Shown here: piece by piece, positions 3,132 through 8,876 of the stretch | Layout: every line of letters starts with the position of its first letter | Numbering within the stretch: position 1 is the stretch's first letter | Translations under genes and position numbers: made by a program | The notes under the pieces: generated by a model | What the model saw: only the letters and a program-made list of their open reading frames with translations | The model's database searches: none | Told to the model about the DNA's origin: nothing | NCBI GenBank assembly: GCA_004213645.1 | Contig: SGZF01000007.1 | Location: 1 to 49,291, forward strand | Direction: 5' to 3' | DNA length: 49,291 nucleotides | DNA from: Flavobacteriales bacterium | GTDB lineage: Bacteria; Bacteroidota; Bacteroidia; Flavobacteriales; Flavobacteriaceae

Positions 3132-4580
3132 TTAAATTTTATTAGTTAAACTTTCTATTCTGTTTAAGGTCTCTTCAGGACCTAATATTTCAATAATTTT
3201 AAATAAATCTGGCCCAGAGAGATTTCCCACTAGACAAAGGCGAAGTGATTTCATAATGTTTCCGAAAGAAATCCCTTGCTCTGACCCAAATGATAATAGC
3301 TGATTTTTCAGTGAATGTGGGTCTGAGATTAAAGCCTTGTTTAATTTACAAAAATTTAAAACATCATATATTAACCCCCTATCAATTTTTTCTATTGCTA
3401 CTGAGTCATATCCTTTAGGTTGACTTAGAAAAACAGAAAGTTCTTTGTCTATATCAAGAGTTGTGTTAAGCCTTTCTTTAATTAAATCAACAATTTCTTC
3501 ACTTTTTTCTAAAGAATACTTTTGAATTAGGCTATCTGAAGTTCTGTTTGCAAGAGTAAGAATTTTTTCTGCCGAGAATTCTTTTAAATGTAAATGGTTT
3601 ATCCAAACAGCTTTCTTATAATCAAATCTAGCGCCCGACTTGTTGATTTCAGTATCATTAAATGAATCAATCAATTCATTAATCGAATACTTTTCTTTGT
3701 TGGAGCTATTATTCCATCCAAGAAGACCTAGATAATTAATTAGTCCTTCGGAAGTAAAACCCGCTTCTTTAAAACCAGTTGAACCCTGCCAATTTACAGC
3801 ATATACTGGATGGCCTTGTTCTTCAGCATCTCTCTTTGACAGCTTACCAGAACCAGTGCTTTTTAGAATTAATGGGAGATGATAAAATTTAGGCGGTTCC
3901 CAACCAAAGTGTTTGTACAAAAGTATGTGCAATGGTAATGAAGAAAGCCACTCTTCTCCCCTTATAACAGATGTTATATTCATTTCATAATCATCCACAA
4001 CATTTGCAAAATGATATGTGGGCATTCCATCTGACTTCATAATAATTTTGTCTTCTAATTCTTCCGACTTAAAGCTTAATTTTCCCCTAACCTGATCAAC
4101 AACATTTACTGTTTCATTCTCAGGAATAATCATTCTTACTACGTACGCCTCTCTTTCTAATCGTGACTTAACCTCATCTTCGCTAAGTGTTAGAGAGTTT
4201 GACATGTTTTTTCTAGACAGGAAGTTATACTTAAAGCTCGTTTCAGCTTCATTTCGAGCCTCTTCTAGTTCAGAGGCAGTGTCAAAAGCATAGTATGCTA
4301 GGCCACTTTTTATAAGCTCTTTTATTCTTTCTTTATAAATATGAGTTCGTTCGCTTTGTTTTATAGGGCCTTCATCAAATTTAAGCCCTAACCAATTTAA
4401 AGAATCTATTATGTGCTGTTCAGCTCCATCTATAGTTCTTTTAGAGTCAGTATCTTCAATTCTAAGTATAAACTCCCCATTATTTTTTTTTGCCATCAAG
4501 TAACTAAACAAAGCAGTTCTTACACCTCCAATGTGAAGAGGTCCTGTTGGGCTAGGGGCAAATCTGGCTCTTTCTCTCAT
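3132..4580 (-). CDS. gltX: Glutamyl-tRNA synthetase
   Basis: Class I synthetase attaching glutamate to tRNA-Glu. The N-terminus RFAPSPTGPLHIGG contains the HIGH motif at about residues 15-18; the KMSKS motif appears as KLSKRD near residue 250. Length (482) is normal for bacterial GltX. Because a separate GlnRS is encoded upstream, this enzyme is expected to be discriminating, though this cannot be read from sequence alone. The ATG is 4 nt downstream of a promoter -7 element, implying a leaderless message. Divergent from ybeY. Confidence 0.95.
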   Translation of the reverse strand: MRERARFAPSPTGPLHIGGVRTALFSYLMAKKNNGEFILRIEDTDSKRTIDGAEQHIIDSLNWLGLKFDEGPIKQSERTHIYKERIKELIKSGLAYYAFDTASELEEARNEAETSFKYNFLSRKNMSNSLTLSEDEVKSRLEREAYVVRMIIPENETVNVVDQVRGKLSFKSEELEDKIIMKSDGMPTYHFANVVDDYEMNITSVIRGEEWLSSLPLHILLYKHFGWEPPKFYHLPLILKSTGSGKLSKRDAEEQGHPVYAVNWQGSTGFKEAGFTSEGLINYLGLLGWNNSSNKEKYSINELIDSFNDTEINKSGARFDYKKAVWINHLHLKEFSAEKILTLANRTSDSLIQKYSLEKSEEIVDLIKERLNTTLDIDKELSVFLSQPKGYDSVAIEKIDRGLIYDVLNFCKLNKALISDPHSLKNQLLSFGSEQGISFGNIMKSLRLCLVGNLSGPDLFKIIEILGPEETLNRIESLTNKI

Positions 4581-4650: not shown

Positions 4651-5085
4651 ATGCATAATGTAAAGTTCATAGGTGTTCCTAAAAACCTCCTAAATAAGAA
4701 GGTGGTTGTTTCACAAATTAATCTTTTTGCTTTGCAAGACTCTTATAGTGTTGGCAAGCTTCAGTTTAACTTTGTTGATTCTGAAACAATGCTTGGTTTA
4801 AATAAAGGTTTTTTGAGTCATAATACTGATACTGACGTAATTACTTTTGATTATTCAGAAAAGGGTTTAATTACTGCAGAAGTTTTTATATCATTGAGCG
4901 TTATGAGAGAAAATGCAAAAAAATACTCTCAAACAACTGAAAATGAGGCGATTAGGTTAATTTCACATGGTCTTTTTCATTGTTTGGGGTACAAGGACAA
5001 GTCTAATAATGAAAAAGAGATCATGAGAAAGAAAGAAGAAGAGTTTATATTTGCCGTTTCACGTGAAACTAAATTAGATGTTTAA
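4651..5085 (+). CDS. ybeY: rRNA maturation endoribonuclease YbeY
   Basis: YbeY is a metal-dependent RNase needed for 16S rRNA 3' processing and ribosome quality control. This 144-residue protein has the family's DTDVITFDY block and the C-terminal metal motif at residues 106-116. In place of the usual H-x3-H-x5-H it reads H106-x3-H110-x5-D116 (HGLFHCLGYKD), a variant I recall from other Bacteroidota. I chose ATG 4651 over TTG 4630 because a promoter -7 element sits between them. The 3' end of the gene contains a parS-like palindrome (codons for VSRET) and overlaps mnmG by 8 nt, so the genes are coupled. Confidence 0.9.
   Translation: MHNVKFIGVPKNLLNKKVVVSQINLFALQDSYSVGKLQFNFVDSETMLGLNKGFLSHNTDTDVITFDYSEKGLITAEVFISLSVMRENAKKYSQTTENEAIRLISHGLFHCLGYKDKSNNEKEIMRKKEEEFIFAVSRETKLDV
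5055..5070. promoter_or_regulatory. parS-like ParB-binding site 1
   Basis: Bases 5056-5069 form a perfect 14-bp palindrome, GTTTCACGTGAAAC, which is the core of the bacterial chromosomal parS consensus TGTTTCACGTGAAACA; only the two outermost bases differ. It lies inside the last codons of ybeY. A second site follows 1.9 kb away at 6951. ParB/Spo0J loads on such sites to organise origin-proximal DNA. Confidence 0.75.
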
Positions 5086-6949
5086 TTCAAAATATGATGT
5101 AATTGTAGTTGGGGGTGGCCATGCTGGAGCAGAAGCTGCTGCAGCTTCTGCTAATCTTGGTGCAAAGACTTTATTGGTAACCATGAATCTGCAAACAATA
5201 GGTCAAATGTCATGTAATCCTGCAATGGGGGGTATTGCAAAAGGACAGATTGTAAGAGAGATAGATGCTCTTGGAGGTTATAGTGGGGTTGTTTCAGACC
5301 TTACAGCCATACAGTTTAAAATGCTCAATAAATCTAAAGGTCCCGCAATGTGGAGCCCAAGAGTACAATCAGACAGATCCCAGTTTGCTCTCAAGTGGAG
5401 AGAAATGCTTGAAAAAACTCCAAATCTTGATTTTTATCAAGATATGGTTATAGGATTAATTGTTAAAAATAATATCATTGAGGGCGTTGAAACTGGTTTA
5501 GGTAATAAAATTTATTCTAAGTCAGTTATTTTAACTAATGGAACTTTTCTAAATGGCCTTATACATGTTGGGGAAAAAAAATTTGGTGGCGGAAGGGTTG
5601 GAGAGAAACCCTCTACCGGAATTACCGCAGGTTTAGAATCCCTTGGCTTTGAGTCCGGCAGGATGAAAACAGGCACGCCTCCTAGGGTAGATGGTAGATC
5701 TTTAAATTATTCTTTAATGGAGGAACATCCAGGAGATGAAAATCCAGGAAAATTTAGCTATTTAGAACATATAAAACCATTAAAAAAACAAACCAGCTGT
5801 CACATTACCTATACAAACTTAGATGTTCATGAAATAATGGCTTCATCTTTTGATAGATCACCAATGTTTAACGGAAGCATCAATAGTACTGGGCCTAGGT
5901 ATTGTCCATCTATAGAAGACAAGGTTTACAGATTTTCAGATAAAAAAAGACATCAAATATTTGTTGAGCCAGAAGGAATAAACACCATAGAAGTTTATGT
6001 TAATGGATTTTCAACATCTATGCCAGAAGATGTCCAGTATTCCGCTATCAAGATGATAAAAGGATTCGAAAACGTTAAGATGTTTAGGCCTGGATATGCC
6101 ATTGAGTATGACTATTTCCCTCCTACACAATTAACTCTAACTTTGGAAACAAAATTAGTAGAAAATTTATTTTTTGCAGGACAAATAAACGGGACCACAG
6201 GATATGAGGAAGCTGCAGCACAGGGTTTAATGGCTGGAATTAATGCCGTTGCAAAAGTTTTTTCAAAAGAACCTTTGGTCTTGACACGAAGCGAGGCTTA
6301 CATTGGGGTTTTAATTGATGATTTAATTACAAAAGGAACAGAGGAACCATATAGAATGTTTACATCAAGAGCAGAATATCGAACTCTCTTAAGACAAGAT
6401 AATGCTGATATTAGATTAACTGAAAAATCTTTTAATATTGGTCTTGCAAAAGAGGAAAGAGTTAAACGGGTTTTAAAAAAGCAGGACGCTGTAAACAAGT
6501 TTGTTAGTTTTTTCAATACAACTAGTTTTGAGTTAGATGAGATAAATAACCTCCTCAAATCAGCAAACTATGACCCTGTTCCGCAGAAAGGAAAGCTTTC
6601 TAAAATATATTCCAGACCAAACATTACACAGGAACATATCAATAAGATTGACTCTGTAAATTCTTATATATCTAAAAACAATCTAGACACAGAGGTCTTG
6701 GATCAAACGGAGATTCAAATTAAGTACAAGGGATATATTGAAAAAGAAAAAACAAATGCCGATAAGCTTCAAAGGCTTGAAGATATAAAGATACCTACCA
6801 ACTTCGACTATTCCCCGTTAGCTTCATTGTCTCATGAAGCAAAAGAAAAGTTAAACAAAATTAAACCTAAAACACTTTCTCAAGCATCTAGAATAAGCGG
6901 AATTAAGCCTAGCGACATTAGTGTATTGTTAGTTAAAATGGGAAGATAA
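5078..6949 (+). CDS. mnmG: tRNA uridine-34 5-carboxymethylaminomethyl synthesis enzyme MnmG
   Basis: With MnmE, this FAD enzyme installs the cmnm5 group at the wobble uridine of certain tRNAs. The 623-residue length is normal. The N-terminal dinucleotide-binding motif is VVGGGHAGAEAA (about residues 10-21), followed by the family hallmarks CNPAMGGIAKG (about 46-56), TGTPPR near residue 200, and the GQINGTTGYEEAAAQG block near 370-385. The C-terminal helical domain is complete. It overlaps ybeY by 8 nt; the following methyltransferase starts directly after its stop. mnmE is not in the window. It is flanked by two parS-like sites. Confidence 0.97.
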   Translation: MFNSKYDVIVVGGGHAGAEAAAASANLGAKTLLVTMNLQTIGQMSCNPAMGGIAKGQIVREIDALGGYSGVVSDLTAIQFKMLNKSKGPAMWSPRVQSDRSQFALKWREMLEKTPNLDFYQDMVIGLIVKNNIIEGVETGLGNKIYSKSVILTNGTFLNGLIHVGEKKFGGGRVGEKPSTGITAGLESLGFESGRMKTGTPPRVDGRSLNYSLMEEHPGDENPGKFSYLEHIKPLKKQTSCHITYTNLDVHEIMASSFDRSPMFNGSINSTGPRYCPSIEDKVYRFSDKKRHQIFVEPEGINTIEVYVNGFSTSMPEDVQYSAIKMIKGFENVKMFRPGYAIEYDYFPPTQLTLTLETKLVENLFFAGQINGTTGYEEAAAQGLMAGINAVAKVFSKEPLVLTRSEAYIGVLIDDLITKGTEEPYRMFTSRAEYRTLLRQDNADIRLTEKSFNIGLAKEERVKRVLKKQDAVNKFVSFFNTTSFELDEINNLLKSANYDPVPQKGKLSKIYSRPNITQEHINKIDSVNSYISKNNLDTEVLDQTEIQIKYKGYIEKEKTNADKLQRLEDIKIPTNFDYSPLASLSHEAKEKLNKIKPKTLSQASRISGIKPSDISVLLVKMGR

Positions 6950-7771
6950 TTGTTCCACGTGAAACATAATTTAAATAAAGACATTAAAGTTCTAAAAGCT
7001 CAAGATCATGTTCTTACGGGAGAGTTTTTTAATATATATCTAGATTCAAATACTGGAATTTTCTGGACATCAATCAAAAAAGATCACAATCATTTAAAAT
7101 ATTATATGTCAGAAAAGTATATTCCACATTCAAATAAAAAAGGGTTTTTTGGGTATATATATTCAGTTTCGCAAAGCATAATGTTTCTGTATAAAAGAAA
7201 CATTTTAAAAAAGTACCTATCTCCAAAATGTCATATTTTAGATTATGGGTCAGGTGATGGAAAATTTGCTGATTATCTAAATAAGGAAGGATTCAAAACT
7301 TCTAAATATGATCCTATCAAAGATAGGTTAAAAAAAACACAAGAAACTGATTATCAGTTAGATATGATTATGTTGTGGCATGTATTAGAACATATACCAG
7401 ACCTTCAAAATACCATGAAAAGTTTAATTTTTAAACTTGAAAATAAAGGTACATTCGTTATTGCTCTTCCAAACAGAGATTCTCTAGATTCAAAGATATT
7501 TAAAGAAAAATGGGCTGCATGGGATGTTCCAAGGCACCTTTACCATTTTAATCATGACTCTATAATCAAGTTAATGAACAGTTATGGTTTTTTTCTTAAA
7601 TCAAAACATCCACTGTTTCTAGATGCTTTTTATGTTTCATACTTATCTGCAAAAATCAAAAAATCAAAATTTCCTTGGTTACAATGTTTAACCATTGGAG
7701 TTGTTTCTAATCTATTTGCCTTATTTAGCAAACAGTACTCTTCTTCTATATATATATTCAAAAAAATTTAA
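6950..7771 (+). CDS. Class I SAM-dependent methyltransferase
   Basis: A 273-residue Rossmann-fold methyltransferase. Motif I is LDYGSGDGKFADYL (about residues 95-108), followed by an acidic motif II region (KYDPIKD) and the motif IV-like MIMLWHVLEHI near 140-150. A C-terminal hydrophobic segment (about residues 235-255) may contact the membrane. The substrate is unknown. It occupies the place after mnmG where many bacteria have rsmG, but it lacks the RsmG signature and is not RsmG. The start is TTG, immediately after the mnmG stop; codons 1-6 (MFHVKH) are created by a parS site. The stop is shared in a TTAA overlap with holB. Confidence 0.85.
   Translation: MFHVKHNLNKDIKVLKAQDHVLTGEFFNIYLDSNTGIFWTSIKKDHNHLKYYMSEKYIPHSNKKGFFGYIYSVSQSIMFLYKRNILKKYLSPKCHILDYGSGDGKFADYLNKEGFKTSKYDPIKDRLKKTQETDYQLDMIMLWHVLEHIPDLQNTMKSLIFKLENKGTFVIALPNRDSLDSKIFKEKWAAWDVPRHLYHFNHDSIIKLMNSYGFFLKSKHPLFLDAFYVSYLSAKIKKSKFPWLQCLTIGVVSNLFALFSKQYSSSIYIFKKI
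6951..6966. promoter_or_regulatory. parS-like ParB-binding site 2
   Basis: TGTTCCACGTGAAACA matches the chromosomal parS consensus TGTTnCACGTGAAACA at all defined positions and, as I recall it, is identical to a Bacillus subtilis Spo0J-bound site. It begins one base into the TTG start codon of the methyltransferase and so encodes FHVKH. It is 1.9 kb from the palindrome at 5055. Two such sites in a small interval suggest that the segment is near the replication origin. Confidence 0.88.
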
Positions 7772-8865
7772 TCTTCTGTCAAATTTATAAGCTTAGTTAA
7801 ACTTATTGCAAAGCAAGTAAACACTATCTTTGAGTTTACATTTCTTGTGATAGAATAATGCGAATCTTCTATTAACCTGATTATTTCCTGTACATTTTTG
7901 CTGTGAATAAAAGGAGATAGTTTTTCTATTTGAAAACCTGAATTAGAAAAAAAAGATGTAAGGTTTGAAGATTTGTAGCTCACAAGCATTACTTCTCTAA
8001 CAAGATAAGAACAATAACCAAGAAATTCTTTTTGCTGTTCTCTAGAATTTGAAGAAACTTTCTCAGCCCACTTAGTAAGGTCTAACACCGCCTTTTTACT
8101 TTTTTTTGCCAAAAAAGCAAATCTTAAACATTCAACAAAGGTTTGTTCATGAGAGATTGAAGAAGCTTCTTCAAGTATATAATTCATAGATCTTGAAAGG
8201 CTTCCTCTGGACGATGATGTAATTAGTTCATAGTCTATTCCCTCAAACGAATTCTCTAGATAAGCTTTGTGAACTTTATAACTGACAGGACTAAGTGTAG
8301 ATATTTGGCAACGAGAAATAATTGTAGGTAATATTTCTTGAATGTTTTGGGTTATTAATATAAAATACGTGTCTGAAGGCGGCTCTTCTAAGATTTTTAA
8401 CAGTTTATTTGAAGATTGAGGCTTCATAGTTTCTGCTCCCCAAAAAATAAAAACTTTATTGCCTCCAAGGAATGGTTTTAATATAGCTTTTTTTTGAACT
8501 TTGTCAATTTCAGAAACTTTGATAGACCCTTGAGAGCTTGAGTTGCCAATAAAGTTTGACCATTTTTGAAAGTCAGAAAAAGGATACTCCTTAATAAAGG
8601 AAAGCCATTCACTATAAATATTTTCGTTTTCTTTAACTGAAGCAAAAGTAGGAAAAGAGAAATACAAATCAGGGTGATTTAAAATATCGCCAAGATATGA
8701 GTCACCATTTTTAAGCAAGCCCCTTGCTATTTCAATGGCAAAATTTAATCCCCCGTAGCCATCTTTATCAATAATAATTTTTGATTGTGGATAGTTTTTT
8801 TTTTTAATAGAGGTGTAGATCTTTTCTTTAATATGCTCTTGACCCAAAATTCTATCTAAATCCAT
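7768..8865 (-). CDS. holB: DNA polymerase III delta' subunit-like clamp-loader protein
   Basis: A clamp-loader subunit of the replicative polymerase. It opens with LGQEHIKEKIY, as HolB/DnaX proteins do. The P-loop region is degenerate (DKDGYGG), as expected of the non-hydrolysing delta'. The sensor-1 region contains FILITQNIQEILPTIISRCQ, with the SRC motif diagnostic of this family near residue 187. The length is 365 residues from ATG 8865. An in-frame TTG at 8871 lies inside the promoter -7 element 8869-8876 and is rejected as start. Divergent from pgk. Confidence 0.88.
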   Translation of the reverse strand: MDLDRILGQEHIKEKIYTSIKKKNYPQSKIIIDKDGYGGLNFAIEIARGLLKNGDSYLGDILNHPDLYFSFPTFASVKENENIYSEWLSFIKEYPFSDFQKWSNFIGNSSSQGSIKVSEIDKVQKKAILKPFLGGNKVFIFWGAETMKPQSSNKLLKILEEPPSDTYFILITQNIQEILPTIISRCQISTLSPVSYKVHKAYLENSFEGIDYELITSSSRGSLSRSMNYILEEASSISHEQTFVECLRFAFLAKKSKKAVLDLTKWAEKVSSNSREQQKEFLGYCSYLVREVMLVSYKSSNLTSFFSNSGFQIEKLSPFIHSKNVQEIIRLIEDSHYSITRNVNSKIVFTCFAISLTKLINLTED

Positions 8866-8868
8866 ACT

Positions 8869-8876
8869 CAAATATA
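8869..8876 (-). promoter_or_regulatory. Promoter -7 element for holB
   Basis: The minus strand reads TATATTTG (exact TAnnTTTG), with 3 nt between its last base and the ATG at 8865. This predicts a leaderless transcript. Confidence 0.55.

Follow-up and report, generated by a model that had tools for sequence, protein, structure and literature searches.

Two palindromes that flank mnmG (gidA) in a stretch of DNA from a Flavobacteriales bacterium of the family Flavobacteriaceae are very probably the chromosomal parS sites of this organism, that is, predicted loading sites for ParB that lie near the replication origin (oriC) and would serve one partition complex. The stretch, termed the window here, has 49,291 nucleotides and represents one entire contig (SGZF01000007.1) of an assembly of 1,043,041 bases (GCA_004213645.1; 31 contigs, 77.7% complete). 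The pair most likely belongs to a known kind of site, and its place is strikingly fixed. This assignment is drawn from comparison of sequences: the match of the sites to the parS consensus, their constant place around mnmG in most relatives examined, the presence in the same genome of parA and of the first part of parB, the absence of the sites from high-quality genomes that lack ParB, and the origin-near position of the sites in relatives.

The sequence at positions 6951-6966, TGTTCCACGTGAAACA, matches the 16 bp parS consensus TGTTNCACGTGAAACA without a mismatch. The second site, CGTTTCACGTGAAACT at 5055-5070, differs from the consensus at two positions, both outer bases, and its 14 bp core at 5056-5069 is a perfect palindrome. 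Both had been pointed out in an earlier reading made from the letters of the window (the sequence-only reading), and both are present as it described them. A half site that it listed at 4707-4714, TGTTTCAC, is present as well, yet it adds nothing to the case. Over both strands the window has two copies of this 8-mer, the second of which belongs to the 6951 site. Because the copy at 4707-4714 stands alone, it was dropped as a meaningful element.

Chromosomal parS sites of the ParB/Spo0J type, with the consensus as the sequence-only reading gave it, are found in Bacillus, Caulobacter and Pseudomonas. They are expected to be few and clustered, to lie close to the replication origin, and to be kept or lost together with ParB. 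When up to three mismatches to the consensus are allowed, the window has seven matches, compared with a mean of 1.21 (standard deviation 1.45) in 100 shuffled sequences; because one shuffle of the 100 also reached seven, the excess on this loose count alone is modest. The stricter count is more telling. The only copies of the core, GTTTCACGTGAAAC, with no or one mismatch in the whole assembly are the two that flank mnmG, 1.9 kb apart. Copies with two mismatches number six, each on another contig, which gives eight places in total versus two for a reversed-pattern control. Within an assembly that is 77.7% complete, the copies are thus few and clustered, and the even spread that the sequence-only reading had named as an argument against parS is not seen.

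Conservation of the sites and their link with ParB

Of 149 relatives, 125 carry GTTNCACGTGNAAC exactly, in most cases as two copies, whereas the reversed control gives eight forward hits in total, in seven of the 149. Placement relative to mnmG was tallied in 66 genomes. In 59 of these, the gene has a site no more than 700 bp away on each side; six have this on one side, and in one (G047) the sites are elsewhere. The tally starts from 70 listed genomes, of which four were set aside: two with mnmG split over two contigs and a site beside each piece (G039, G061) and two where mnmG was not found (G007, G059); the other 55 site-bearing genomes are outside those listings.

A second set consists of 80 loci from named records, the best 80 of 580 confirmed ones by similarity to the MnmG of the window. 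They are mostly titled as genera of Flavobacteriaceae and, by the way they were ranked, lean to close relatives; the first-listed named relative, the metagenome-assembled genome of Cryomorphaceae bacterium MED-G11, has an MnmG with 86% identity to that of the window. The exact 5′ site is found in 80 of 80 loci and the exact 3′ site, hence both, in 71; the reversed control is found in none (1.65 Mb). Eight of the nine loci without an exact 3′ site are from Aquimarina; they display extra 5′ sites and, at a distance of 2.2-2.35 kb from where mnmG starts, one more site. In the remaining locus (L307) the 3′ position is occupied by GTTCCATGTGGAAC, in which CATGTG replaces the central CACGTG. The same replacement is observed in family f11 (L182, L183, L191-L194), with GTTTCATGTGAAAC beside mnmG in four of six genomes. 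The CATGTG form possibly reflects a changed preference of ParB, or decay.

Conservation of the sites appears to act on the DNA rather than on the encoded protein. The 5′ site is within an upstream reading frame of at least 80 codons in 38 of the 80 named-record loci. In four of these (L234-L237, the closest to the window by MnmG among the best 80) it is read as VSRET at the end of YbeY, as in the window itself, and in the other 34 it is read as FHVE or FHVK. Two different frames thus pass over one palindrome, and the encoded protein is therefore unlikely to be the reason for conservation of the 5′ site. The 3′ site is outside any frame of at least 100 codons in 50 of the 71 loci that have it.

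Beyond the close relatives, a phylum-wide draw restricted to genomes at least 90% complete has an exact site in 359 of 392. Genomes of genus g101 in this draw each have 3 to 10 exact parS sites; there are two in most other drawn genera of its family. Thirty class-level parS loci were obtained from the phylum-wide search, and mnmG is within 1.5 kb of the site in 23. The loci where it is not are L219-L223 (family f19) and L232-L233 (family f23).

The genome of the window encodes a ParA of 257 amino acids followed by the first 120 amino acids of a ParB, which is cut by the contig end (L009). The full ParB of a relative has as its best matches solved ParB/Spo0J chains (1.5e-50, about 200 residues), which rank above Noc. 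Among 102 high-quality relatives (completeness of 90% or more, contamination of 5% or less), sites are present in 85 of 96 that bear ParB and in none of six without it. The latter six have genomes of 0.3-0.6 Mb, all in family f16, and they keep mnmG. The 24 relatives without an exact site comprise these six, nine with no mnmG match in the assembly, and nine with both mnmG and ParB (six in f11, three in f6). Sites and ParB are thus kept and lost together, despite these last nine genomes and eight drafts described below.

In established ParABS systems, ParB loads at parS, slides as a clamp and, with ParA, partitions the chromosome, and these steps are carried over here. ParB bound to cytidine triphosphate would attach to each site and close into a clamp. 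The clamps would slide outward over mnmG and its neighbours to form a single partition complex near oriC, and ParA, whose gene precedes parB on a different contig, would then move the sister origins away from each other. All three steps, from ParB binding through sliding to segregation, are inferred for this genome; the proposal in the sequence-only reading that the pair may act as a ParB loading centre is supported by the comparative evidence.

The sites and the replication origin

The sequence-only reading also suggested that the window may be close to oriC. This has gained support from the direction of ribosomal RNA (rRNA) operons and from GC (guanine versus cytosine) skew in near-complete relatives; for the window's own genus the skew test is a rough one. 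With parS taken as the origin, 41 of 41 rRNA operons (17 genomes) are transcribed in the direction of replication, compared with 6 of 41 for dnaA and 12 of 41 for parB. Counted per genome, as operons within a genome are not independent, all operons fit in 17 of 17 genomes for parS, 3 of 17 for dnaA and 2 of 17 for parB. Eighteen genomes were searched, and G142 was left out as it gave no rRNA match. Fragments of rRNA were merged by hand; G085 is represented by partial rRNA only, and G047, G056, G064 and G091 each have one partial rRNA beside full ones. Genome lengths were rounded to 100 kb for G049, G064, G080, G085 and G106, the two-contig G048 was taken as its 3.41-Mb contig, and the mnmG position stood for the adjoining sites in G045, G091, G100 and G147.

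For GC skew, a two-arm pattern was fitted to 20 samples of 20 kb in each of five one-contig genomes. Expressed as a fraction of the circle, the distance between the fitted origin and the sites is 0.027 (G038), 0.044 (G102), 0.030 (G047), 0.006 (G147) and 0.036 (G142), with G147 and G142 measured to mnmG, which the sites adjoin; dnaA is 0.21-0.46 away. Samples that agree with an origin at the sites number 17, 19, 15, 20 and 18 of 20 in the same order, versus 10, 1, 5, 6 and 2 for an origin at dnaA. Skew thus agrees with an origin near the sites in five of six near-complete genomes sampled, the sixth (G117) being contrary.

On the circle, parB is 0.09-0.46 and dnaA, the replication initiator gene, 0.24-0.49 from the sites in 17 genomes. 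The dnaA gene was observed outside the origin-proximal part in 17 of 17 near-complete relatives (e.g., G038, G045 and G102), which as related genomes are not independent. In 4 of 17 one-contig relatives with a full dnaA match, the sequence starts at dnaA, a gene that by the tests used here does not mark the origin of these genomes.

DnaA boxes were searched with consensus motifs. The window's own genome has no close same-direction pair of TTATNCACA, and the best DnaA-box score is 3.7, obtained without a shuffle control. As no DnaA-box cluster accompanies the sites, the window is called origin-near and not oriC. Clusters above 15 block-shuffled controls were detected in four of 20 fetched loci (G101, G147, G097 and G047). 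The weaker of these could be chance, because a shuffle of G091 reached 8.4 and the lowest cluster score is 8.5. With clusters in 4 of 20 fetched and 0 of 80 named-record loci, and pairs far from the sites in G106 and G117, DnaA boxes by this consensus were rejected as a general marker of oriC. Skew in 1-kb steps around mnmG was likewise not used for fine placement of the origin; its mean over the named-record loci is positive on both outer sides and seemingly follows gene direction.

Alternative explanations and relation to known systems

It is conceivable, though improbable, that the sites are true parS and that the origin has moved away in the genus of the window, as may be the case in G117, such that ParB would be loaded far from oriC. 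In G117, skew does not switch at the sites. In G017, of the same genus as the window, an origin at 350 kb, the best-scoring position tried, suits 11 of 14 samples and one at 450 kb suits 10 of 14, the sites being at 465 kb; this test within the genus is a rough one, with the circle taken as 1.2 Mb. On the other hand, the rRNA operons all fit parS, including the single one of G117, although none of those genomes is from the window's own genus, and skew in the window itself changes from -0.032 on the left of ybeY to +0.049 beyond position 7800, on the right.

Still less probable is that the palindromes represent operators through which a transcription factor controls mnmG and the genes beside it, and not partition sites. 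Their location at gene junctions on both sides of mnmG would suit operators, yet the six ParB-less genomes of the reduced family f16 keep mnmG and have no sites, and seven of the 30 class-level parS loci are without mnmG within 1.5 kb. G047 (L024, L190) separates the two elements. Here the sites are at 997-999 kb and mnmG is at 1277 kb, 280 kb apart, and the skew pattern favours the sites. The fitted origin is separated from them by 0.030 of the circle and from mnmG by 0.136, 15 of 20 samples agree with the sites versus 12 of 20 with mnmG, and the change from negative to positive skew falls between 910 and 1010 kb.

A chance or codon-driven resemblance without function, which the location of one site within coding sequence might suggest, is scarcely credible given the exact 5′ site in all 80 named-record loci, none for the reversed control, and the two reading frames (VSRET and FHVE/FHVK) that pass through it.

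Several observations weigh against the assignment of the palindromes as origin-near parS. The ParB of the window's genome is cut and that genome is 77.7% complete. The six ParB-less high-quality genomes are of one family of reduced genomes, and they are not six independent cases. ParB went unmatched in 16 genomes of the full set, and eight of these, all drafts of 72-84% completeness, bear sites. Nine relatives keep mnmG and ParB and have no exact site; G111, G122, G094, G141 and G148 have no site within one mismatch of the core. There is also the minority of class-level loci, seven in all, where parS is away from mnmG. With respect to the origin, DnaA-box clusters close to the sites were absent from 16 of 20 fetched loci and from all 80 named-record loci, and DnaA-box pairs are found at least 0.7 Mb from mnmG and parS in G106 (C1:1941001) and G117 (C1:422307 and 3057630). 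In G117, skew is negative in four of four samples to the right, contrary to expectation, and in six of eight to the left, in small samples of 3-5 kb; twelve further samples of 3 kb show no clear pattern. In G047, skew returns to negative values in the samples at 1160, 1210 and 1310 kb, for which reason this genome is a supportive rather than a clean case.

The likeness of the pair to parS of the ParB/Spo0J type resides in the palindrome, the low copy number, the origin-near position and a parA-parB pair in the genome; it differs in that parB and dnaA are far from the sites in the 17 genomes and in that the sites are tied to both sides of mnmG. Noc binding sites are palindromic sites of another ParB-family protein and are alike in these two respects, but the palindrome in the window has the parS sequence, and the ParB of the relative ranks with ParB/Spo0J. 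In many bacteria, mnmG, rsmG, parA and parB form a cluster near oriC. As in that cluster, mnmG is beside parS and near the origin; in contrast, parA-parB and dnaA are elsewhere. The mnmG-parS arrangement may be a remnant of an ancestral origin cluster.

A broader hypothesis, which we consider as likely to be wrong as right, is that the chromosomal centromere throughout Flavobacteriales, and in varied form in the class, consists of a fixed two-site device around mnmG that marks the origin region and that has outlived the departure of parAB and dnaA. The dnaA gene would be held in the terminus-proximal half, perhaps since the dosage of an origin-near dnaA is selected against.

Part of this picture is already known. 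In Bacteroidetes, oriC is commonly far from dnaA (PMC4755523), and oriC is predicted at mnmG, away from dnaA, in Mariniflexile litorale (PMC11278836) and at mnmG in Algorimicrobium (PMC12843772), all by Ori-Finder and GC skew; in PMC11278836 the labels of oriC and the terminus in one figure legend are swapped relative to the text. A word search finds neither parS nor ParB in the main texts of these three papers. The available portions of PMC2768785, PMC4759079, PMC7203096 and PMC13342612 hold no parS in Bacteroidota, the last mentioning parS for Bacillus subtilis. A literature search over titles and the starts of abstracts gave no parS at mnmG and no parS in Flavobacteriales, and no earlier account of parS at mnmG as an order-wide rule; a prior report in the parS survey by Livny and others is possible.

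A conserved parS pair at mnmG may provide a simple marker of the origin region in fragmentary marine genomes, and it names loci for ParB loading in a phylum where the literature search showed nothing on parS. G047, with parS and mnmG apart, and family f11, with a one-base variant of the site in place, constitute natural experiments.

Gene context

The features around the two sites are listed in Table 1. The start of ybeY is inferred as the first ATG of its frame.

Table 1. Positions of the parS sites and neighbouring genes in the window
Feature	Position	Strand	Basis or remark
parS site 1 (core 5056-5069, GTTTCACGTGAAAC)	5055..5070	.	inside ybeY 3′ end, just upstream of mnmG
parS site 2 (TGTTCCACGTGAAACA)	6951..6966	.	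directly past mnmG stop codon, at possible start of next gene
mnmG (gidA), tRNA modification	5078..6949	+	between both parS sites; TIGR00136, 835.8 bits, cut-off 524.85
ybeY, rRNA maturation RNase	4651..5085	+	last codons hold parS site 1; TIGR00043, 82.8 bits, cut-off 45
Methyltransferase-like gene	6950..7771	+	weak UbiG-type model matches below cut-off; first possible codons overlap parS site 2
gltX, divergent neighbour	3132..4580	-	TIGR00464, 455.7 bits, cut-off 289.95
DNA polymerase III delta′-like gene	7768..8871	-	best match 125.6 bits, under model cut-off 282

As the sequence-only reading had it, one site is within coding sequence and the other is on a possible start codon, a TTG at 6950 that would open the next frame. 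This start codon was not retained as a conserved feature; it looks local, since the 3′ site is frame-free in most of the named-record loci that have it. The methyltransferase-like gene that follows has a counterpart in G047, where the relocated parS sites lie around a methyltransferase-like gene with 34% identity to it (E 1e-46).

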